DNA of 64,000 nt from Verrucomicrobiota bacterium JB022 (GTDB lineage: Bacteria > Verrucomicrobiota > Verrucomicrobiia > Opitutales > Oceanipulchritudinaceae). Below are positions 21,510 through 45,025 of the stretch, one piece after another. The notes under the pieces were generated by a model, which did not search any database, was not told where the DNA came from, and was given only the letters and a program-made list of their open reading frames with translations. A program made the position numbers and the translations under genes. How positions within the stretch are numbered: position 1 is the stretch's first letter; each line of letters opens with the position of its first letter. The stretch is taken from NCBI GenBank assembly GCA_030673845.1, contig JAUTCQ010000003.1, positions 62,001 through 126,000 of the forward strand, in the 5' to 3' direction.

Positions 21510-22532
21510 TTACTCCGCGCTCCAGCTGCCCAGGACGCGGAAGAAGGCCGCTTCGGTGCTGGTCGGCAGGGCGACGGTGCGGCTGACCGGCGTCGTTTCC
21601 GCGTTGGCGGGGACCGTTTCCACGTCGGCCCAGCTTTCGCCGCTCCAAGCTTGGATGGTGTAGGCCACTCCCGCTTCTGCCTGCCAGGTAAGCTGTGCCG
21701 TAGTGGCGCTGGCGAGGGCGAAAGTCACTTCCGGCGCAGCGGGCGGCACGGGCAGGGCAGGGTGGATGTAGCCCACCGCTTCCAGATCGAAGCCCGCCGA
21801 GGCCGAGACCGGGTAGGGGTCGTAGATCGGGTCGCCATCGCTGTCGAGCGAGTTGCCGTCGCCTACCACGTCCACGATCTTGACGTAGCGGATGGCCTCG
21901 AAGTCCAGATGCTCGCTGCCCGGCAGGCCGCGCAAGTCGGCGAGGTCGAAAGGCGTGCCGTAGCCGATGCGGTATTTGCCCGCCAAGCCGTCCACGTCGC
22001 GGGCGTCGAGGCGGCCAAAGGCTCCGACCGTCGAGGCGGTCAGCGAGTCGCTGGGGAAGCGGACGAAGTTCACGCCGTCGCTGGAGACCTCGACGTAGGC
22101 CAGCTCCAGCATCTCGTCGTTGAAGGAGTTTTCGAACACCGCCAGGTCCCAGCCCTCGCCGTCGCGGAAGGCCTCATCGAAGCCCAGCACGACTTCGCCG
22201 CCGCGCCCGATGCAGAGGATGTCGTAGACGCCGCCGGTGCGGGTCTCGGGGTCGCCGTCGTGGTAAGGATCTTCGGCGGGTGCCGGCCCGACGGAGGGGC
22301 CGAGGGCGCGCGCCGGGGTTTTCCAGATCTCCGACACGTCGGTGCCGTAGTTGAGCGTCACGATGCTCGAAGCCCAGCCAGCAAAGTTTTCGGCCGTGCC
22401 GGGGATGGCGGTGGTGGGCGTGCCCTCCCAGTCGCGCAGGCCGGGAGCCTGGCGGGGATAAGGGCCGTAGGCGTAGAGTGAGGCGGCGGCGGTCAGGCCG
22501 AGCAAGGTGGCGGAGAGGCGGAGGTGCTTCAT
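21510..22532 (-). CDS. Secreted cell-surface protein of a corrinoid-uptake-type locus
   Basis: 340 aa with signal peptide [21 protein letters not shown]. Central domain has [39 protein letters not shown], and a calcium-loop-like segment [15 protein letters not shown]; the last ~90 residues form a fibronectin-like domain ending [11 protein letters not shown], the type seen at the ends of other verrucomicrobial exported proteins, including the paralogs at 37.8-41.9 kb. It starts 1 nt after the BtuB-like receptor's stop codon, so the two are one operon. Inferred role: a surface accessory that captures ligand for the receptor. Confidence 0.7.
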
Positions 22533-22533
22533 G

Positions 22534-24489
22534 CTAGAAAGAGTATTGGGCGCCGGTCCGCCAGCGGATACCGGGGGCGGGATACCAGGCGCCGCTGTAT
22601 TTGACGGTGGCGTAGCGGTTGTCGAAAAGGTTCTCAGCGGCGCAGTAGACGCTCAGGGCCTGCCGCGGCTGCCAACGCACGCGGGCATCGACCACGGCGG
22701 CGGCAGGAAGGCGCGGCTGGATATTGCGGAAGTCGTCGCCTTCGTAGGCGCTGCTGGTGTAGCGATAGCCGACGCCGAGCGTGACGGTCTCGATCACCTC
22801 CACCTCGCCGCCCAGCGTCACTTGATGCGCAGGCACGAGAAAGCGGTCGTTGCCCTCAAACGGGCCACTGGTGAAGCGGGCGTCGATCCAGGTGTGGTCG
22901 AGCTGCAGGCTCCAGCGGTCGGCCTGCCAGCGGGCACTGGTTTCGAGCCCCAGGCGGCGCACGTCGGCCAGGTTGACGTTTTCGTTGCCGTTGAAGTCGA
23001 TCTCGCCCTCCATCCACTGCGCAAAGGCGTTGAGCCGCAAGGTCAGCGACTCCTGCCGCCACTCGCCGCCCAGCTCCACGTTGTAACCCTCTTCCGGCTC
23101 CAGCTGGCTATCGAAGTCCGGGAAGCCGCGGTAGGAGAAAGCCTCGTCGATGGCTGGGTAGCGGTAGAGCCGGTCGACCCGCAGCCATTGGCGGAAGTTC
23201 ACACTTGGCTGCCAGACGAGGCCGAGGTTGGCCGACCAGCCATCGAGGTCGCGCGTGGCCTCGCGGTAAACTCCTCGGCTGTAGTCCGGCGAAAAGGGGT
23301 CGTAGGTGACGAGGTCGTAATCGTAGCGCGCCAGCTCGCCCCGCACGCCGCCGCTGATCTGCCACCGCTCGCTCAGCTCCTGGCGGCGGTGGAGGTAAAG
23401 GGCGGCGGTCGAGAGCGAGACGTCGGCCTTACCGATCAACACCTCGCGCGAACGGTCCTGAAAGTCGTCGATCTTGAGGCCCGTGCGGGTCAGGTCGAGC
23501 CCGGCGGAGCTCTCGCCGCTGGCGTCGGCCCGCTGCACGCGAGGGGCGGCGTGGGCGATGTGGTAGGTGTCTTCGGTGAAGATGCCGTCGAGGTCGGGCC
23601 GCACGTAGCGGTGCGTGTAGCCGGCCGGTACTTCCACCGCCCAGTCTTCCGTCTCCAGCGTCCAACTGCCCTGCGTGGCGAGGTAGGTCTCGTGAGACGA
23701 CGTGCGGCCGCCCCGGCTGGTCTGCGGGTCGCGGTGATACCATTCGGTCGTCAACGGGCCGGGCATCTCGCTGTAGCTGTCGACCCATGTCACTTTGCCA
23801 CTGGCGTGCCAGCGGGCGTTTTGCGGGCGGTAGCCGAGGGAAAAGTGGGCAGAGTCGGCCTCCTGGGCGCTGTGCTGGCGGTAGCCGTCCTCCTCATAAT
23901 GCTGGGCGGCGGCAAACGCGCTCCAGCCGCCTCCGAGGCGACTGCCGGCGGCCAGTTGAGCGTCGCGGTAGCCAAGGTTGCCCCCGGCCAGTGTGGTGCG
24001 GAAAAACGGGGCGGTGGGGGCCTCGCGGGTAGTAATCTTGATCACGCCGCCGACCGCGTGGTTGCCGTAGAGAGTCGTCTGCGAGCCGCGAATCACCTCC
24101 ACCTGCTCGATCAAGACGGGCGGGATCTCCAGCCAGTTGATGCCGCCGATGTCGGGCGGGTTCATCGGGATGCCGTCGACGAGTACCAGCGCCCGTTGCG
24201 TGCCGACCGAGCCGAAGCCCCGCAGGTTGATCTCGGCCTGCAAGGGCGAGCCGCTGTAGGAGCGGAACTGCAGGTTGGCCTCCTGCCGCAGCAGGTCGAC
24301 TACCGTCAGCGCGCGGGAAGGATCGAGCGCATCCCCGCCGATCACGTCGATCGAGGCGGGTACGGCACCCACTTCGACCGGGAAATGCCAGGCCGTGGTG
24401 GTAACGGCAGGCAACGCCACCGGCTCCTCACCCTGCCCCCAGAGGATGGATGCGGTTATTAGGGGAAGTGCTGGTAGGAATTTGTTCAA
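22534..24489 (-). CDS. TonB-dependent receptor, BtuB-like (probable corrinoid receptor)
   Basis: 651 aa. Signal peptide [20 protein letters not shown], then [14 protein letters not shown] just before the plug (~45-150: [58 protein letters not shown]), and a 22-strand-type barrel ending in Phe (RTGAQYSF). The plug resembles BtuB-type receptors. Neighbours support B12: a secreted surface protein immediately downstream, a divergent PEP-CTERM protein, and a BtuF-like binding protein. No cobalamin riboswitch precedes it; only 75 bp separate it from the divergent gene. Substrate is an inference. Confidence 0.85.
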
Positions 24490-35300: not shown

Positions 35301-37502
35301 TCAACCGACCGCTTGCTGTGCTTCCTTGGCGGCTTTGGCCGAGGCGCTCTTTTCGCGCACTTCGTATTCGCGGCGCACGTCGAACTCGGCTTGCTTGCCG
35401 GCGTTCCATTGCTCGACCGGGCGCAGGTAGCCGACCACGCGGCTGTAGATCTCAGCCTGGCGACCGCAGTGCGGGCAGTTGGCGTGCTCGCCGTTCAGGT
35501 AGCCGTGCTCGGCGCAGACGCTGAAGGTGGGGGTGAGCGAGAAATACGGCAGGTGGTAGCTCTCGGCCACACGACGGATCAGGCGCTTGGTGATCGTGAG
35601 GTCGCGGATACGCTCGCCGAGGAAGAGGTGGAGCACGGTGCCGCCGGTGTAGCGGGTCTGGAGGTCGTCCTGCTTGTCCAGCGCCTCGAAGATGTCTTCG
35701 GTGTAGTTGACCGGGAGGTGCGTGCTGTTGGTGTAGAAGGGCTCGGCTCCCAGCTCGCGCACGGCCTTGTCGTTGGCAAATTGGATATCGGGGAAGCGGT
35801 CGCGGTCGGCCTGGGCGAAACGGTAGGTCGTGGACTCCCCGGGGGTGGCCTCGAGGTTGTAGAGGTGCCCGGTTTCCTGCTGGTAGCTCACCAGCCGTTC
35901 GCGCATGAAGTCGAGCACATCGCGGGCAAAGGCCTGGCCGCGTTCGGTGCCGATGTCTTCGCCGAAGAGGTTGGCGCAGGCCTCGTTCATGCCCAGCAGG
36001 CCGATGGTGCTGAAGTGGTTGGCCCAATACGTGCCGCGCCGCTCCTTGATGTCGCGGAGGTAGAAGGTGGTGTAGGGGTACAGGCCGCCGTCGGTCAGGC
36101 GTTCGAGCAGCTTGCGCTTCACTTCGAGGCTGTCGCGGGCGAGGTCCATCAGGCGGGCGAGGCGGGCGTAGAAGTCCTGCTCGTTGGTGGCGAGGTGGCC
36201 GAGGCGCGGCATGTTGATCGTCACGACGCCCACAGAACCCGTCAGCGGGTGAGCACCGAACAGGCCGCCGCCGCGCTTGTCGAGCTGCGTGTTGTCGATC
36301 CGCAGACGGCAGCACATGCTGCGCGCGTCCTCTGGATCCATGTCGCTGTTGATGAAGTTGCTGAAGTAAGGCACGCCATACTTGGCCGTCATCTCCCACA
36401 GCGGGTCGTGCTCCGGGTTGTCCCAGTCGAAGTCCTTCGTCAGGTTGATCGTGGGGATGGGGAAGGTGAGGATGCGGCCCCGGGCGTCGCCATCGGCATA
36501 CAGCTCGAAGAGCGCCTTGTTGAAGCGGTCCATCTCGGCCTGGAACTCGCCGTAGGTCTCGGGCTGCAGCTCGCCGCCGCGGATCACGGGGTGGTCGCGG
36601 TAGTGCGACGGGCACTTGAGGTCGAGCGTCACGTTGGTAAACGGCGTCTGGAAGCCCACCCGCGTCGGCACGTTGACGTTGAACATGAACTCCTGCAGGG
36701 CCTGCTTCAGCTCCGCATCGCTCAGCTTGTCGTAGCGGATATAGGGGGCGAGGAGCGTGTCGAAGCTGCTGAAGGCCTGCGCGCCGGCGGCCTCGCCCTG
36801 CAACGTGTAGAAGAAGTTGACCACTTGGCCCAGCGCGGCGCGGAAGTGCTTGGCCGGGCGGCTCTCCAGCTTGCCCGAAACGCCGCGGAAGCCCTCCTTG
36901 AGCAGGTCGAAGAGGTCCCAGCCCACGCAGTAAACGCTGATCAGGTTGAGGTCGTGGATGTGGAAATCGCCGTGCTCGTGGGCGTCGCGCACCTCGCTGC
37001 TGTAGACCTTGCGCAGCCAGTAGCTCTTGCTGAGGCTGCTGGAGAGGTAGTGGTTGAGCCCTTGCAGAGAGAAGCTCATGTTGCTGTTTTCCTTCACCTC
37101 CCAGTCGAGACGGCTCAGGTATTGGTCGACCTTATCCACGTCGGCCGCCTGCTGGATCTCGCGCAGGCGGGCGTGCTGCTCGCGGTAGACGATGAAGGCG
37201 CGGGCGGTGGCGCGGAAGGGCGAGGCCAGCAGCACCTCTTCGCACATGTCCTGGATCTGCTCGACCGTCGGCACGTCGACAGTGAGGATCGTCAAGGCGT
37301 GTTCGACCACGCGCACGGCGAGGCGCAGGGCCATGTCTTCGCCGAATTCGCCGGTCGCAGCGCCCGCCTTGGCGATGGAAGCGGTGATCTTGCGGGTGTC
37401 GAACGGTGCGATCCGTCCGTCACGTTTCTTGACCTGCGAGAAGAGGCCGGTCTTGCTGGCCAGATAGGCTTGGAGGTGGGTATTCGGGGAAAGGTCGAGC
37501 AT
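35301..37502 (-). CDS. nrdD: Anaerobic ribonucleoside-triphosphate reductase (class III)
   Basis: 733 aa. Reduces NTPs to dNTPs without oxygen, using a glycyl radical. N-terminal ATP-cone (~15-105: VKKRDGRIAPFDTRKITASIAKA), barrel core with NVPTRVGFQTPFTN and MNEACANLFG, four-Cys zinc site (CAEHGYLNGEHANCPHCG, ~662-679) and the glycyl-radical loop RVVGYLRPV (Gly ~690). Start at 37502 (MLDLSPNTH) is preferred to 37544. The activating enzyme gene nrdG is not adjacent and not in the window. Two NrdR-like boxes lie upstream. Confidence 0.95.
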   Translation of the reverse strand: MLDLSPNTHLQAYLASKTGLFSQVKKRDGRIAPFDTRKITASIAKAGAATGEFGEDMALRLAVRVVEHALTILTVDVPTVEQIQDMCEEVLLASPFRATARAFIVYREQHARLREIQQAADVDKVDQYLSRLDWEVKENSNMSFSLQGLNHYLSSSLSKSYWLRKVYSSEVRDAHEHGDFHIHDLNLISVYCVGWDLFDLLKEGFRGVSGKLESRPAKHFRAALGQVVNFFYTLQGEAAGAQAFSSFDTLLAPYIRYDKLSDAELKQALQEFMFNVNVPTRVGFQTPFTNVTLDLKCPSHYRDHPVIRGGELQPETYGEFQAEMDRFNKALFELYADGDARGRILTFPIPTINLTKDFDWDNPEHDPLWEMTAKYGVPYFSNFINSDMDPEDARSMCCRLRIDNTQLDKRGGGLFGAHPLTGSVGVVTINMPRLGHLATNEQDFYARLARLMDLARDSLEVKRKLLERLTDGGLYPYTTFYLRDIKERRGTYWANHFSTIGLLGMNEACANLFGEDIGTERGQAFARDVLDFMRERLVSYQQETGHLYNLEATPGESTTYRFAQADRDRFPDIQFANDKAVRELGAEPFYTNSTHLPVNYTEDIFEALDKQDDLQTRYTGGTVLHLFLGERIRDLTITKRLIRRVAESYHLPYFSLTPTFSVCAEHGYLNGEHANCPHCGRQAEIYSRVVGYLRPVEQWNAGKQAEFDVRREYEVREKSASAKAAKEAQQAVG

Positions 37503-37567
37503 GACAAAAGGTGTTTTTGGAGGAAGGGGAGGCGTAAGCCCCAAAATGTGAACAACCAGGCGTATTG

Positions 37568-37615
37568 CCTACATTTAGTGTCCATCAGGGTGAACGACCA
37601 CAACATATAGTACCC
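37568..37615 (-). promoter_or_regulatory. Tandem NrdR-box-like sites upstream of nrdD
   Basis: CCTACATTTAGTGTCC (37568-37583) and ACAACATATAGTACCC (37600-37615) share ACAT(T/A)TAGT and are offset by exactly 32 bp, about three helical turns. NrdR boxes (consensus about ACA-N-ATATA-N-TGT) occur as pairs at this spacing before ribonucleotide reductase genes. They lie 66-113 bp upstream of the nrdD start. Confidence 0.6.
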
Positions 37616-37773: not shown

Positions 37774-39051
37774 CTAAAGTCGTGAAGCCACGATGCGGTA
37801 GTAGCCGTAACTGTTGAGGCTGACGTCGCGCTGGTAGAGGCTCGCTTCGGTTGCGGAGTGGTCAATCGTCTCGAGATCCGTCCAGGTGCCGTCGATGTTG
37901 CGCCCTTGCAGTACGTGGCGCACGCTGGGTTGGGCATGCCAACTGAGGCGCAGGGTCGTCTCGTTCAGCACCGCCGCTTCGAGATCGGGCATCAGGACAG
38001 GGAAGGTGTAGTCGTAGATGACCCAGGGGCGATAGGCACCGTCTTGCCAGAGGGATCCCCAAATAGTGCTACCATCTAAGCTCGTATTGTGGACATGAAA
38101 GTTGGAGATGTAGTCGAGGCCCTCGTGGTCTTCCACCTCGTTGAGCAGGTTCAGGATCTTGCCGTTCTCCCAGATGACGGGCACCTGCGCGCCCGTGTGT
38201 GTGAGCGCATTGCCAATAACGATTGCTGCGCGAGCACTGGAGGCGCTCATGTTGATGATACCATGGCTACCTTGGTTGGTGGCGATGCGTCCACGAAATC
38301 CAGAGAATGGCCGCGGCTCTTCCTCGCCCGCAAAAACCCAGTGCGGTAGATGGTCTCCGAGGTCGATCGCGGTAATATCTCGCGTCACACTCCGCCACAC
38401 CCATTCAGGCACTTCGCGGTACATGCCCTTTTTCCATTCGTAGCGAGTATGCTCCCCGAAGTCGGCGGAGAATATGATGTTGCTCCCGTCGTGGTTGACG
38501 CTGTGGGCGACGGAGTTGGGAGCAAAGACATCCCAGCCCCCTGCTTCGTTCAGCTTATAGATGCTGTAGTAGTAGCGGCCATTGGAGGATGGCAATCCGG
38601 GTTTGGTCGTGTGGAGGATCGTTTTGCCATCGTCGCTGATTTCAAAGTTGGTGGTGATCAGGTTATCCTGAATGTCCATCCGCACGTATCCAGTAGCTTC
38701 CGTCCAATAGAAGAAGGCCTCATCATCTAGATATGTTTTGCGCGCCGCGACTATCCAGGCCGTCCCTGCATCGCTGACGACATCAAAGCGCATGTAAGTA
38801 TATCCTTCAGGCGCTGCAATCGACTCCACACCCTTTTCTGGGGTCCATTGAGAGGCTCTTCCCACGTCGTTACCGGTGGTGGCATCGGGAAACCAGGCGG
38901 TGCCCCAGACGGTATCACCATCTGCACTGGCTCCAGCGGTCCATTTCCAGTTCTCTGGCAAAACAGCGAAGGTGAAGTCTCTTGCTACACCAGGAACAGT
39001 TAATCCGATGAGCGTGGCGAGCCCCACCAGGCGACGACATTTAGCAGTCAT
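37774..39051 (-). CDS. Secreted HAF-repeat-like protein, paralog 1
   Basis: 425 aa from ATG 39051. N-terminal signal (LVGLATLIGLTVPGVA). The body carries repeats of the 'extracellular HAF' kind, about 45-60 residues each: GASADGDTVWGTAW, DVVSDAGTAWIV, EISDDGKTILHTT, SVNHDGSNIIFSA, TSLDGSTIWGSL, with WTEATGYVR-type strands between, probably a beta-propeller. The C-terminal ~85 residues are a fibronectin-like domain (LRLSWHAQPSVRHVLQGRNIDGTWTDLET) ending YYRIVASRL. Most diverged of the three tandem copies. Function unknown; surface location inferred. Confidence 0.75.
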   Translation of the reverse strand: MTAKCRRLVGLATLIGLTVPGVARDFTFAVLPENWKWTAGASADGDTVWGTAWFPDATTGNDVGRASQWTPEKGVESIAAPEGYTYMRFDVVSDAGTAWIVAARKTYLDDEAFFYWTEATGYVRMDIQDNLITTNFEISDDGKTILHTTKPGLPSSNGRYYYSIYKLNEAGGWDVFAPNSVAHSVNHDGSNIIFSADFGEHTRYEWKKGMYREVPEWVWRSVTRDITAIDLGDHLPHWVFAGEEEPRPFSGFRGRIATNQGSHGIINMSASSARAAIVIGNALTHTGAQVPVIWENGKILNLLNEVEDHEGLDYISNFHVHNTSLDGSTIWGSLWQDGAYRPWVIYDYTFPVLMPDLEAAVLNETTLRLSWHAQPSVRHVLQGRNIDGTWTDLETIDHSATEASLYQRDVSLNSYGYYRIVASRL

Positions 39052-39089
39052 GCCTGTTTGTGGGGTTATGCATTCAATAACGCCAGTAC

Positions 39090-39129
39090 AAAAACTCACG
39101 GTCGCAGGCGTTGGAGCCTGACGACCGTG
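39090..39129 (-). terminator. Repeated hairpin spacer, copy A
   Basis: On the minus strand CACGGTCG-T-CAGGC / GCCTG-CGACCGTG (39129-39097) followed by AGTTTTTGT. It lies after the paralog 2 stop codon and 46 nt before the paralog 1 ATG. The same sequence recurs at 40506-40545 and 41988-42027. Confidence 0.75.
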
Positions 39130-39152
39130 GGGAAAGGAGGCAAGGGGCTTGC

Positions 39153-40466
39153 TTACAGCTTCGTGGCTACGACGCGGTAGTAGCGGGCGGCGTCTTCGAC
39201 GGCTACCTCGTAGGTGTAGGGGCCGATCTCGGTCGATGAGGCGTCGTGGGTCGCCAGATCGGTCCAGGAGCCGTCGGGGTTGTGCACCTGCAGCACGTGG
39301 CGCACACCCGGTTGCGGCGACCAGACCAGGCGCATTGTCTCGTCGTCGAGCGGCACCATTTCAATCGCTGGTTGCACGACCGGCACCGGGTAGTCGCGGA
39401 TGATCCAGCTAACCCACTCTTTTGGCTCATTATCCACATATAACTGTCCGTTGCCGATGAGGACTGAGCCGTCGCGGCTAATATGCAGGATCTCGAGGCC
39501 CCTTACTTCTCCCGTGCCACCCGCTGCTGCGATGACTTCCCAGATGCCGGTCTTGCCGGTTTGAGCATCGATTACTGCGCTGCTAGTATGTACAACGCCT
39601 CCTGCAGCGCCAGCTTCAGCCAAGGTCGAGGGAGTGTAGTTGGTGACCTCATCAAGCTGAGATAGCCCGGCGGCCTTACTCCAGGAAAAGACAACATTGG
39701 TGCCCCAGAAAGTAGCGGTGCCTTTTCGGCTGGTGCCATAGACGACCAACCCGTCGGGGCTGATGTCTGTGGCCCAGTTCGATTCAAAATGGTCTTCAGC
39801 GGCATCTTCCACGACAGGGAAGGCAGGAATGCGTTCCATACCTCCAGCTTCGCTCCACCTGAAGGCGTGGCTGGTGATGCTGCCAGCTATCGGATAGAAA
39901 TTTCCGGCCACCGTCGCTCCGTCAGCGCTCACCGCTGTTATTTTCGTGTGATCCGCGAATAACTCCAGCCCGTGGGTTACTGTCCATCGAAATCCGTTGA
40001 TCGTGGTCCAATAACTCCCGGCCTCCCACTTAGTCTGAGAAATGGTGCCTACAATGACGCTACCGTCTTCGTTCAACGTGGCAGAGCTGATATCAATTTC
40101 TGCTTCCAGGCCAATTTTCTCCTTTAAGGAGATCGGTTCTTCTTCTTCCGTCCAAAAGAACCGCTCGAAATTTTCACCGTAAAAGATGATGCTGGAGCCA
40201 TCCCCACTTACCGCTTCGACACTCATGCAGAAAAAATCCTTCAGTAGGGTAGTTCCTCCCTCTTGAAATATCAAAAGCCTGGGTTCGGCATCGTCTCCTT
40301 CGGTGGCGTATCCGTAGAAGATCGTTCCGTTTGAGTTCATTTTTTGAATTGTCGCGCTTTCCACAAGCGGTGACTCAAAAACTTCAAACGTCATCGCCCA
40401 GGCAGGCGAGGCGGCGGTAACCAGCGTGAGGAGCGAGAACCAGCGGCAGCAGGACGGTAGGTGCAT
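39153..40466 (-). CDS. Secreted HAF-repeat-like protein, paralog 2
   Basis: 437 aa from ATG 40466. Signal peptide MHLPSCCRWFSLLTLVTAA..AWA is nearly identical to that of paralog 3, as is the whole C-terminal domain (GVRHVLQVHNPDGSWTDL..RYYRVVATKL). The middle (~30-345) diverges and carries HAF-type units: KMNSNGTIFYGYA, AVSGDGSSIIFYG, TLNEDGSVIVGTI, AVSADGATVAGNF with AFRWSEAGGMERIP, DISPDGLVVYGTS and HISRDGSVLIGNG. Predicted extracellular beta-propeller plus fibronectin-like end. Gene and flanking spacer look duplicated as a unit. Confidence 0.78.
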   Translation of the reverse strand: MHLPSCCRWFSLLTLVTAASPAWAMTFEVFESPLVESATIQKMNSNGTIFYGYATEGDDAEPRLLIFQEGGTTLLKDFFCMSVEAVSGDGSSIIFYGENFERFFWTEEEEPISLKEKIGLEAEIDISSATLNEDGSVIVGTISQTKWEAGSYWTTINGFRWTVTHGLELFADHTKITAVSADGATVAGNFYPIAGSITSHAFRWSEAGGMERIPAFPVVEDAAEDHFESNWATDISPDGLVVYGTSRKGTATFWGTNVVFSWSKAAGLSQLDEVTNYTPSTLAEAGAAGGVVHTSSAVIDAQTGKTGIWEVIAAAGGTGEVRGLEILHISRDGSVLIGNGQLYVDNEPKEWVSWIIRDYPVPVVQPAIEMVPLDDETMRLVWSPQPGVRHVLQVHNPDGSWTDLATHDASSTEIGPYTYEVAVEDAARYYRVVATKL

Positions 40467-40505
40467 CACCAATACCTGAAGCCTCTACCTTAATAACGCC
40501 AGTAC

Positions 40506-40545
40506 AAAAACTCACGGTCGCAGGCGTTGGAGCCTGACGACCGTG
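40506..40545 (-). terminator. Repeated hairpin spacer, copy B
   Basis: Same hairpin as copies A and C (stem 40513-40545, minus-strand T-tract at 40510-40506), between the paralog 3 stop codon (40569) and the paralog 2 ATG (40466). Near-identity to copy A extends well past the hairpin, into the 3' end of the flanking gene. Confidence 0.75.
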
Positions 40546-40568
40546 GGGAAAGGAGGCGAGGGGCTTGC

Positions 40569-41948
40569 TTACAGCTTCGTGGCTACGACGCGGTAGTAGC
40601 GGGCGGCGTCTTCGACGGCTACCTCGTAGGTGTAGGGGCCGATCTCGGTCGAAGAAGCGTCGTGGGTCGCCAGATCGGTCCAGGTGCCGTCGGGGTTGTG
40701 CACCTGCAGCACGTGGCGCACACCCGGTTGCGGCGACCAGATCAGGCATATCGTGTCTTCGTCGAGCGGCACCATTTCAATCGCTGGTTGCACGACCGGC
40801 ACCGGGTAGTCGCGGATGATCCAGCCGATGTGGGTGGTTTCCAACGTGCTTTCCTTGAATGTCGATCCTCTACCGATAATCGTGGAGCCATCGCGACTGA
40901 TACCGGTGATCTCTTCGAGGGTTAAGTCTTCTGCATCAAAGCCGCTTTCTTCCACTAGCTCGCTGATGTAGCGCTTCCCTTTTTCAGCGTCGATGATGAA
41001 AGGACTATCCTCGGCGTGAATCATGACAACACCTCCCCCCGCTGCTCCATACGCGCCTTTCGTCTGGGGAGCATCCAGATAGTTCTCCAGCGGAGTCGGA
41101 ATCCCTTCTCCTTTCCAGACAAAAGCGGTGGAAGTGCCCCAGGGCGTAGGGGGGCCGAAACTGCCAAACCCGTGGACGGTGCGCCCATCCGGGCTGACTC
41201 CTGTCGCACTACTTTTGGTTCTGTAGCCCGCTTCCGGGTCTTCTTCTGTCGGCATAAAAGGAATGGCCTCGAAGCCATTTTCCTCTGTCCACCGAAAGGC
41301 TTGGCGCGAGGTTATCATTCCATAGTCCCCCTCAGGGGACTCGGTGTTTTGGCGAGTGTATCTTGTGCCGACCGCTGTTTTGCCATCGGCGCTCACGGCT
41401 GCCAGCTCGATCTCATCTTCAAATATTTTCATCCCGGCTTCGGCCGACCAATAGAAGCTGCGATACGGAACAGTGACCTCGCTGCCGGTGATGACCGTGC
41501 CGTCTTCGTTCATCGAGAAGGAGGTTCCAAGGCTTTCGCCTTGGGTGACTCCTAAGTGCTCTTTCAAGTCGACTGCACCGGTGGATGCTGTCCAGATCAG
41601 ATATTCACGCTCATCTGTGCTATTGAAAATGAGCGTCTTTCCATCGCCGCTTATGGCCAGAATATCATAAACAGGGACCTCGTAGATGGTGACTTCTCCT
41701 CCGGCGGTGATGCTGAACAGCTTGCCGGGCTCGGCCTGCATATTTGTGTAAGCAATCCCATACATGATGCTACTGTCAGCACTGATGGCTTTCAGTTGAT
41801 TCTCTGGATATCGAATCCATCCGACATCCGGTAGCTCTGAGCGGATAATGGGGATTTCAACAACCTCAAACGTCATCGCCCACGCAGGCGGTGCGGCAGT
41901 TGCAAGGGCGAGGAGCGAGAACCAGCGGCAGCAGGACGGTAGGTGCAT
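40569..41948 (-). CDS. Secreted HAF-repeat-like protein, paralog 3
   Basis: 459 aa. Signal peptide MHLPSCCRWFSLLALATAAPPAWA. HAF-type units in the middle: AISADSSIMYGIA, AISGDGKTLIFNS, SMNEDGTVITGSE, AVSADGKTAVGTR with AFRWTEENGFEAIP, GVSPDGRTVHGFG and GISRDGSTIIGRG. The final ~85 residues match paralog 2 almost residue for residue. At the DNA level the two genes are close to identical at both ends (about 250 bp at the 3' end, ~70 bp at the 5' end) but diverged between, suggesting duplication followed by diversification or end-homogenising gene conversion. Confidence 0.78.
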   Translation of the reverse strand: MHLPSCCRWFSLLALATAAPPAWAMTFEVVEIPIIRSELPDVGWIRYPENQLKAISADSSIMYGIAYTNMQAEPGKLFSITAGGEVTIYEVPVYDILAISGDGKTLIFNSTDEREYLIWTASTGAVDLKEHLGVTQGESLGTSFSMNEDGTVITGSEVTVPYRSFYWSAEAGMKIFEDEIELAAVSADGKTAVGTRYTRQNTESPEGDYGMITSRQAFRWTEENGFEAIPFMPTEEDPEAGYRTKSSATGVSPDGRTVHGFGSFGPPTPWGTSTAFVWKGEGIPTPLENYLDAPQTKGAYGAAGGGVVMIHAEDSPFIIDAEKGKRYISELVEESGFDAEDLTLEEITGISRDGSTIIGRGSTFKESTLETTHIGWIIRDYPVPVVQPAIEMVPLDEDTICLIWSPQPGVRHVLQVHNPDGTWTDLATHDASSTEIGPYTYEVAVEDAARYYRVVATKL

Positions 41949-41987
41949 TTTTAATACCTGAAGCCTCTACCTTAACAACGCCAGTAC

Positions 41988-42027
41988 AAAAACTCACGGT
42001 CGCAGGCGTTGGAGCCTAGCGACCGTG
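41988..42027 (-). terminator. Repeated hairpin spacer, copy C, after valS
   Basis: Third copy of the hairpin (stem 41995-42027, T-tract on the minus strand at 41992-41988), 45 nt downstream of the valS stop codon and 46 nt upstream of the paralog 3 ATG. One base transposed relative to copies A and B (CTAGCG instead of CTGACG). Confidence 0.78.
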
Positions 42028-42071
42028 GGGAAATGCTTGCGGCGGGTTGCCGCGAGGCCTGAGGAATCGCT

Positions 42072-44909
42072 TTAGCCGAGGCTGGCGAGCAGGCGCTCGA
42101 TCTCTTCCTTCTTGGCCTTGGTTTCGGCGAGCTGGGCGCGGGCCCCTTCGACGATGTTGGCCGGGGCGCTGGAGACGAATTTCTCGTTGTTCAGCTTGGC
42201 TTCGCCGGACTGGATGCCCTTTTCGAGCTTGGCCAGTTCCTTGCCCAGGCGTTCCTTTTCGGCTGCGACGTCGATCGCGCTGGCGAGGTCGAGGAAGATG
42301 GTGCCGAGGCTCGTTACGGTGGCAGGCATCCCGTCGGGGCGCTGGTCGAGGGTGGGCATCTCGCCGGCGGGGATCAGGTTGAGGATGGTGGCGAGGTTGT
42401 CTTCCACCACTTGGCGCTGCGCCGGGTCTTCCGCAAGGTAGCGCAGGGACACGTCGCGCTTGTTGGCCACGTTGTAACCGGCCTTGAGGGCGCGGGCTTG
42501 CGTGATGAACTCCTTCACCTGCTCGACTTGGGCGGCGGCGGCGCTGTCGACCACGATGCCGGTGCCGGCCAGCTCGCGGCGGAGCTGTTCGGCGGAGCAG
42601 AGGCGGCTGTCTTGCAGGAAGCGCTGGCCCTTGCCCACATAGCCCAGCTCTTGCCACAGTTCTTCGGCGATGAAGGGCATCAGCGGCTCGGCGAGCTGCA
42701 AGGTCTGGCGCAGGCACAAGTCGAGGATGGCGAGCACGGTGCCCTTGGTCGCCTCGTCGCGCAGCTTCGTCTTGGAGGCCTCTACATACCAGTCGCAATA
42801 GTCGCTCCAGAAGAAGGCGTAGAGCTCCTGCGGGTAGGGGTGCATCTCGAAGCGGCCAAAGGCGTCGGCGATGTTCTGCGTGGCCTGGATCAGGCGGTGC
42901 AGGATCCAGTGGTCGTAGCGGTCGAGCTTGGAGGGCTCGATGCGACGCAGGATGGCGCCGAGGCCGGAATTGTCGCTCGCGGACCCGCTCATCTGGCGGA
43001 AGCGGCAGGCGTTCCACAGCTTGTTGCAGAAGTTGCGGCCCAGCTCGACCGACGGGGACTGGATGGGCTGGTCGCCCTTGGCCTCGGTAAACTCGAAGCG
43101 GATGTCCTGGCCCTTGGGGGCGATGTTGACGATGCCGTAGCGCAGGGCGTCGGCCCCGTAGGCGGCGATGAGGTCGAGCGGGTCGGGCGAGTTGCCGAGG
43201 CTCTTCGACATCTTGCGGCCGATGCCGTCGCGGATCAGGCCGGTGATGTAGACGTCGCGGAAGGGCAGGCGCTTGGCGATCTCGGCATCCGTCAGCTCGG
43301 TCTTGCCTTCGCCACTGAACTCGAGGCCGGCCATCACCATGCGGGCGACCCACAGGAAGATGATGTCGAAGCCCGTCACGAGGGTGCTCGTGGGGTAAAA
43401 GTAATCCAGCTCCTGCTGTTGTTCGCCGGTGGCGTTGGGCCAGCCGAAGTTGGCCAGCGGCCAGAGCCAGGACGAGGCCCAGGTGTCGAGCACGTCTTCT
43501 TCCTGCTCCCAGTTGTCGGGATCTTCCGGGCCTTCGACGGAGACGTGGACGAGCTTGCCGTTGGCGTAGTCCTGCTCGGTGAGGGCGCTGCGGTCGATGC
43601 CCTTCTTGTACCACACGGGGATGCGGTGGCCCCACCAGAGCTGGCGGCTGACGCACCAGTCGATGTTGTCGCGCTCCATCGTGTCGAGCCAGTGCAGGTA
43701 GGTCTTGGCCCAGCGCTGCGGGTGGAAGCGGAGCAGCGGCTGGCCGTTGGCGTCGACGGCTTCGATTGCGCGCTTGGCTTCGGCCACCTTGGGGTAGCGC
43801 AGCCACCATTGCATCGTGAGGCGGGGCTCGATCGGCACGTCGGCACGCTCGGAGAAGCCCACGTTGTTTTCGTAGGCTTCCTTCTCGATCAGCAGGCCCA
43901 GCTTTTCCAGCTCTTCGGCGGCGGCCTTGCGGGCCTTGAAACGGTCCATACCCACGAAGATCTTTGCGCGCTCGTGGATCGTGCCGTCGGGGTTGAGCAC
44001 GTCGATGATCGGCAGGTTGTGGCGCTGGCCGATTTCAAAGTCTACCTGGTCGTGGGCGGGCGTCACCTTGAGCGCACCGGTGCCGAACTCCTTGTCCACC
44101 GCCGCATCGGCGATGACGGGGATGGGCTCGCGAGGGAAGGGGCGCCAGACCATCTTGCCGACGAGGTGCTGGTAACGCTCGTCTTCCGGGTGCACGGCGA
44201 CAGCCGTATCGCCCATGATCGTCTCCGGGCGGGTGGTCGAGATTTCGAGGTGGGTGCGCGTGACGCCGTCGGCGCCGGTGGCCGGCTCAACCAGCTCGTA
44301 GCGCATCTTGTAGAAGAAGCCCTTTTGCGGCTTCATGATCACCTCTTCATTGGAGAGGGCCGTGAGGCTGACGGGGCACCAGTTGCTCATGCGCAGGCCG
44401 CGGTAGATGTAGCCGCGGCGGTAGAGCTCCACAAACGAAGTCAGCACGGCCTTGGAGTAGCCTTCGTCGAGCGTAAAGCTCGTGCGGCTCCAGTCGCAGG
44501 ACGCGCCCAGCTTGCGCAGCTGGTTGAGGATGATGCCGCCGTAGTCTTCCTTCCACTGCCACACCTCTTCGAGGAACTTCTCGCGCCCGAGGTCGCGGCG
44601 GTGCTGGCCGCGCTCGCGCAGCTTCTTCTCGACGCGCGTCTGCGTGGCAATGCCGGCGTGGTCGGTGCCGGGGAACCAGAGGGCTTCCTTGCCTTCGAGG
44701 CGCGCGCGGCGGGTAAAGATGTCCTGCAACGTATTGTTGAGGATGTGGCCCATGTGGAGCATGCCCGTCACGTTGGGCGGCGGGATCATGATGGTGTGCG
44801 GCTGCTTGTCGGGGGCAACGTGCGCCGCGAAGGCGCCCTGCTGCTCCCAGGCAGCGTACCACTTGTCTTCCACCTGCGAGGGGTCGTATGCTTTGGCGAG
44901 TTCAGGCAT
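42072..44909 (-). CDS. valS: Valyl-tRNA synthetase
   Basis: 945 aa class I synthetase charging tRNA-Val, with editing of mischarged Thr. HIGH motif as HMGH in PPPNVTGMLHMGHILNN (~42-58), editing domain with STTRPETIMGDTAVAVHPED, KMSKS in GRKMSKSLGNSPDP (~565), anticodon-binding domain, and the C-terminal coiled-coil arm (ERLGKELAKLEKGIQSGEAKLNNEKFVSSAPANIV). Start at 44909 (MPELAKAYDPSQVEDKWY); the upstream in-frame start at 44981 adds non-homologous residues. The downstream hairpin is shared with the paralog cluster. Confidence 0.96.
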   Translation of the reverse strand: MPELAKAYDPSQVEDKWYAAWEQQGAFAAHVAPDKQPHTIMIPPPNVTGMLHMGHILNNTLQDIFTRRARLEGKEALWFPGTDHAGIATQTRVEKKLRERGQHRRDLGREKFLEEVWQWKEDYGGIILNQLRKLGASCDWSRTSFTLDEGYSKAVLTSFVELYRRGYIYRGLRMSNWCPVSLTALSNEEVIMKPQKGFFYKMRYELVEPATGADGVTRTHLEISTTRPETIMGDTAVAVHPEDERYQHLVGKMVWRPFPREPIPVIADAAVDKEFGTGALKVTPAHDQVDFEIGQRHNLPIIDVLNPDGTIHERAKIFVGMDRFKARKAAAEELEKLGLLIEKEAYENNVGFSERADVPIEPRLTMQWWLRYPKVAEAKRAIEAVDANGQPLLRFHPQRWAKTYLHWLDTMERDNIDWCVSRQLWWGHRIPVWYKKGIDRSALTEQDYANGKLVHVSVEGPEDPDNWEQEEDVLDTWASSWLWPLANFGWPNATGEQQQELDYFYPTSTLVTGFDIIFLWVARMVMAGLEFSGEGKTELTDAEIAKRLPFRDVYITGLIRDGIGRKMSKSLGNSPDPLDLIAAYGADALRYGIVNIAPKGQDIRFEFTEAKGDQPIQSPSVELGRNFCNKLWNACRFRQMSGSASDNSGLGAILRRIEPSKLDRYDHWILHRLIQATQNIADAFGRFEMHPYPQELYAFFWSDYCDWYVEASKTKLRDEATKGTVLAILDLCLRQTLQLAEPLMPFIAEELWQELGYVGKGQRFLQDSRLCSAEQLRRELAGTGIVVDSAAAAQVEQVKEFITQARALKAGYNVANKRDVSLRYLAEDPAQRQVVEDNLATILNLIPAGEMPTLDQRPDGMPATVTSLGTIFLDLASAIDVAAEKERLGKELAKLEKGIQSGEAKLNNEKFVSSAPANIVEGARAQLAETKAKKEEIERLLASLG

Positions 44910-45025
44910 GGCCGTCTGGTAACTGAAGAATCGAAGGCGCGGCCGCACCACTCGTGTCGACCGCAAAGGATCGAAAATCACCAGCGCAGCCCCCGGTAGT
45001 CAAAGGAAAAGACGCGGGGAGGGGG

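Follow-up and report, generated by a model that had tools for sequence, protein, structure and literature searches.

Gene content of the array

The 64,000-nucleotide stretch of DNA analysed here (the window), from Verrucomicrobiota bacterium JB022, carries three intact minus-strand open reading frames between valS (42072..44981, minus strand), the upstream flank, and a gene for an anaerobic ribonucleotide reductase (35301..37544, minus strand), the downstream flank, which we take from its sequence to be nrdD; the synteny of both flanks is kept in a sister species. In order of transcription they are p3 (40569..41948, minus strand), encoding a predicted secreted HAF/PD40-like propeller protein of 459 aa; its paralog p2 (39153..40466, minus strand), of 437 aa from an ATG start; and the more distant paralog p1 (37774..39051, minus strand), of 425 aa from an ATG start. 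The start of p2 is probably the ATG at 40466 and that of p1 probably the ATG at 39051, as the GTG at 39099 falls within a terminator hairpin. The three tandem paralogs proposed in an earlier, sequence-only reading are therefore present as described. The assembly is a draft, and near-identical repeats of 300 nt within the array could conceal collapsed or extra 1.4-kb units.

Two candidate NrdR-site-like boxes, gtactatatgttgtgg and gacactaaatgtaggc, lie at 37567-37613 upstream of nrdD and are partly conserved in the sister species, placing the array between these boxes and the valS terminator. No tRNA or Rfam feature was found near the array.

Protein architecture and predicted fold

As read from their sequences, p1, p2 and p3 each begin with a Sec-type signal peptide, which in p2 and p3 ends in PAWA followed by MTFEV, and the latter two have MHLPSCCRWFSLL in common. 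SxDGxxxxG-type units follow, about six each in p3 and p2 with fewer clean units in p1, so the repeated motif in an exported protein that characterises HAF repeats is present, in agreement with the initial description of secreted proteins carrying such units. The layout of p3 comprises the signal peptide, a propeller (residues ~22-385) and a C-terminal beta-sandwich (~388-459). These proteins resemble those of the HAF (TIGR02913) and PD40 (PF07676) families in their SxDGxxxxG units, secretion and predicted propeller, but score just below the curated cut-offs: p2 matched HAF_rpt with 22.6 bits (E 8e-5; curated cut-off 22.65), and PD40 scored 20.2 bits in p3 and 10.6 in p2 (Pfam gathering score 20.9). 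TIGR02913 did not match p1 or p3, and a whole-genome search with this model returned nothing above its 22.65-bit curated cut-off.

The C-termini also differ: in place of PEP-CTERM or an autotransporter barrel, p1-p3 have a beta-sandwich module without a family model. All three terminate in YYR(V/I)VA(T/S)(K/R)L with no hydrophobic helix and lack the PEP-CTERM signal (PEP motif, hydrophobic stretch, basic tail), although exosortases are encoded in this genome, as they are in that of the sister species. A further secreted protein encoded in the window (21510-22532, minus strand) ends in the same C-terminal module, and its gene adjoins one for a BtuB-like TonB-dependent receptor (22534-24489, minus strand).

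The structural model of p3, built on a three-sequence alignment, is almost all beta with a mean pLDDT of 60. Its residues 38-383 matched the S9-peptidase propeller 8wt1 (Z 17.0, 289 residues, rmsd 4.4 A), the best PDB match, with many further propellers ranking below it, so a PD40/WD40-like beta-propeller fold is indicated for p3 at this mean pLDDT. The suggestion of a propeller-like middle was thus upheld by a model of moderate quality for p3, the prediction for p1 being unusable (mean pLDDT 39), and searching solved structures by sequence gave weak matches only (E 0.03 and 0.18). The last ~70 residues of p3 are modelled as more strands, read as a separate beta-sandwich, and the C-terminal module of all three proteins appears Fn3-like. 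A propeller fold in common does not establish function.

Array genes had no match in PHROGs, and no match to known defence families was found with PADLOC, on which ground an anti-phage defence system was set aside. A phage or plasmid origin was also rejected, as no phage matched and plasmids carried just distant autotransporter proteins. A search for named relatives by p3 peptide patterns found none. The products of p1-p3 are most likely exported scaffold or binding proteins of the cell surface or matrix, whose exposed propeller may bind a ligand or scaffold.

Shared tracts and terminator copies

Near-identical DNA ends, noted earlier by eye, were recovered by a repeat finder as two families: D1, in which 39076-39375 matches 40492-40791 (300 nt, 97%), and D2, in which 40375-40551 matches 41857-42033 (177 nt, 90%). 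On the minus strand, the tail of p2 with its intergenic DNA (39079..39409) is ~97% identical to the tail of p3 with its intergenic DNA (40495..40825), and the terminator, leader and signal peptide of p2 (40375..40551) are 90% identical to those of p3 (41857..42033). Because D1 and D2 overlap between the genes, the tail is continuous with the next start in a single block that crosses the gene boundary and takes in ~75-100 nt of intergenic DNA. When the junctions are aligned, the p3/p2 junction matches the p2/p1 junction on its left side and the valS/p3 junction on its right, which is the pattern expected for tandem units.

The common core of the junctions is a strong hairpin (predicted -25.5 kcal/mol) followed by a T-run, found three times in the window: T1, the valS terminator upstream of p3 (41995..42027, minus strand); T2, between p3 and p2 (40513..40545, minus strand); and T3, between p2 and p1 (39097..39129, minus strand). 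A corresponding hairpin and T-run lie directly behind valS in the sister species, which makes the valS terminator the most likely source of the copies between the paralogs. The terminator/leader block had no further strong match in the genome beyond the three array copies, which excludes a genome-wide repeat element as the origin of the identical ends.

The first reading likened the ends of these proteins to the constant export and attachment modules of a cassette. That such ends were selected as a cassette is not supported, because near-identity continues through the intergenic DNA and the copied terminator, which indicates that copying, rather than protein function, explains the like ends.

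Divergence along the paralogs

The last 84 residues of p2 and p3 are 93% identical, confirming the near-identical signal peptide and C-terminus of ~85 residues reported before, while their middles share ~35-45% identity in protein and ~50% in DNA; the C-terminus of p1 is 51% identical, in keeping with its description as the more distant copy. Codon alignment of p2 and p3 gave pS 0.05, Ks 0.05 and pN 0.03 for the last 84 codons, Ks 0.39 for the first 26 codons, and pS 0.72, Ks 2.3 (saturated) and pN 0.45 for the 317 aligned codons of the middle. Divergence is thus non-uniform along the length, as anticipated. Between p1 and either paralog the middle is saturated and the tail is nearer saturation (pS 0.52-0.57), the p1 tail being more alike to its paralogs than the p1 middle.

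The best-matching segments of p2 and p3 scored 291 (tail and intergenic DNA) and 105 (terminator and start), whereas permuting the same sites 2000 times never gave more than 43; the contrast between ends and middle is far above chance. This pair accordingly shows the mark of gene conversion or concerted evolution, an identity that is locally raised at both synonymous and non-coding positions. The middle had been suggested to be diversifying, but it bears no sign of fast change: its saturated pS with a lower pN indicates old divergence under amino-acid constraint, leaving positive selection unsupported.

Fourfold-site GC is 0.67-0.71 in p1-p3 versus 0.88-0.94 in five other window genes, which are the whole of the background used, and it is higher in the tails (0.84-0.88) than in the middles. 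This fits, without proving, a resident C-terminal module to which propeller bodies of foreign origin, or with relaxed codon usage, were joined.

The locus in a sister species and in the wider order

Comparison within the genus was made with a single genome, that of the sister Puniceicoccaceae bacterium 5H (G001), each species being represented by one genome. In this relative, valS and nrdD are adjacent with ~450 bp between them and the array is absent from the intact junction, so the locus differs between relatives, as foreseen; the difference reflects either gain of the array in JB022 or its loss from the sister lineage. In other members of the family the valS-nrdD order is not kept within 1.5-kb flanks. 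Ks between the two species is 0.43 for valS and 0.66 for nrdD, from which it follows that the species split is about tenfold older than the p2/p3 tails but younger than the middles.

Other HAF proteins of the genus carry PEP-CTERM ends. One is encoded elsewhere in the JB022 genome (L005:1435-2601) by a gene of low fourfold-site GC (0.62), and a tandem pair with fourfold-site GC of ~0.77 is present in the sister species (L024:7750-9998), away from valS-nrdD. Their propeller is homologous to that of p1-p3 up to the last-strand Y-x-P motif, right after which the genus proteins switch to a PEP-CTERM anchor, whereas p1-p3 change to their other C-terminal module at the same point. The bodies of the sister pair are near-saturated, yet the last 86 nt are 86% identical, a possible weaker and independent sign of tail homogenisation. 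No tail homogenisation at synonymous sites was seen in five further sets of paralogs from the order.

Profile matches occurred in 30 of the 273 sampled genomes of the order, in which the propeller is partnered with PEP-CTERM, autotransporter-barrel-like ends or Fn3-like FYR/FFR endings (the latter two assigned by eye). The modularity of the C-termini envisaged from the array alone thus extends to the wider family.

Evolution of the array

The evolution of p2 and p3 probably involved old duplication followed by later homogenisation of tail, terminator and start through ordinary homologous recombination, a case of partial concerted evolution. The array would be a tandem series of three old paralogs, each repeat unit consisting of a valS-terminator copy, leader and gene, whose exported and probably surface-associated or extracellular products would combine a HAF/PD40-like propeller with an Fn3-like beta-sandwich. 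After the split from the sister species, either gene conversion or unequal crossing-over would have homogenised the tail, terminator and next start between the p3 and p2 units. The middles, too divergent for recombination by then, would have escaped, and only the tail-terminator-start segments, still able to recombine, would have stayed alike. Such homogenisation would account jointly for the non-coding identity, the contiguity and the contrast in age. The start is less homogenised than the tail, which argues against one event and suggests that more than one was needed.

The same pattern is given by a recent duplicate whose middle was replaced by imported DNA, and this is the main rival to partial concerted evolution. 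It holds that p2 and p3 are recent duplicates, one middle having been swapped through the shared ends for a divergent homologue from another strain or species, as in the exchange of surface-antigen alleles. This rival accounts equally well for an old middle between young ends. It also fits middles of lower fourfold-site GC than the tails, in genes far below their neighbours, and surface proteins are known to undergo allelic exchange and domain rearrangement, for example in Porphyromonas gingivalis (PMC5266723). However, the p2 and p3 middles are alike in composition, neither looking newer; low GC is common to the other HAF genes of the genus and so marks the family rather than a single import; and searches of 273 genomes of the order, of named genomes, and of phages and viral contigs turned up no close donor middle. 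Replacement from outside is on balance unlikely. That identical ends reflect independent functional constraint on export or sorting, with no copying between genes, is scarcely credible: the function of signal peptides and of C-terminal modules speaks for it, as does a p1 tail that is likewise more alike than its middle, but constraint on protein cannot account for near-identity at synonymous sites and in intergenic DNA, and this, with the tail Ks of 0.05, refutes constraint alone for p2 and p3.

The original proposal of a dedicated diversifying system, whether adhesin, recognition or self/non-self, in which the ends are fixed and the exposed propeller varies, now seems improbable. Its expected anatomy of signal peptide, propeller and constant C-terminal module is compatible with p1-p3, the array is present in one sister species and absent from the other, and the tail of the sister tandem HAF pair is also partly homogenised. 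Against this, identity runs through non-coding DNA and the terminator copy, the middle has no excess of amino-acid change, PADLOC gave no match, the five other paralog sets of the order lack tail homogenisation at synonymous sites, and neither silent cassettes nor further copies of p3 were found elsewhere in this genome. A related scheme, in which the valS-terminator copies with flanking tail and start serve as recombination anchors, the middles being exchanged or amplified to diversify a surface binding protein, is to be regarded as very improbable.

The tuf genes of Salmonella (PMC5485169) are a described case of bacterial paralogs undergoing partial concerted evolution through gene conversion, and they likewise have non-uniform identity with conversion halting at divergent sequence; unlike in tuf, the homogenised tract here links tandem neighbours, running from the tail of one through the terminator to the start of the next. 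The surface antigens of P. gingivalis, for which gene exchange was shown by strain comparison (PMC5266723), are similarly modular secreted proteins with conserved ends, but p1-p3 are known from one genome and exhibit no sign of rapid change.

The array therefore represents mostly ordinary gene-family evolution rather than clear evidence of diversifying recognition. Fixed ends around a variable middle are easily misread as a designed cassette, whereas the constant ends here are one recombination tract, which includes a copied transcription terminator. In Opitutales, the occurrence of the same HAF-type propeller on several C-termini helps to annotate exported proteins that are as yet unstudied. 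If strains do exchange middles, the locus would offer a tractable model of surface-protein diversification in Verrucomicrobiota.
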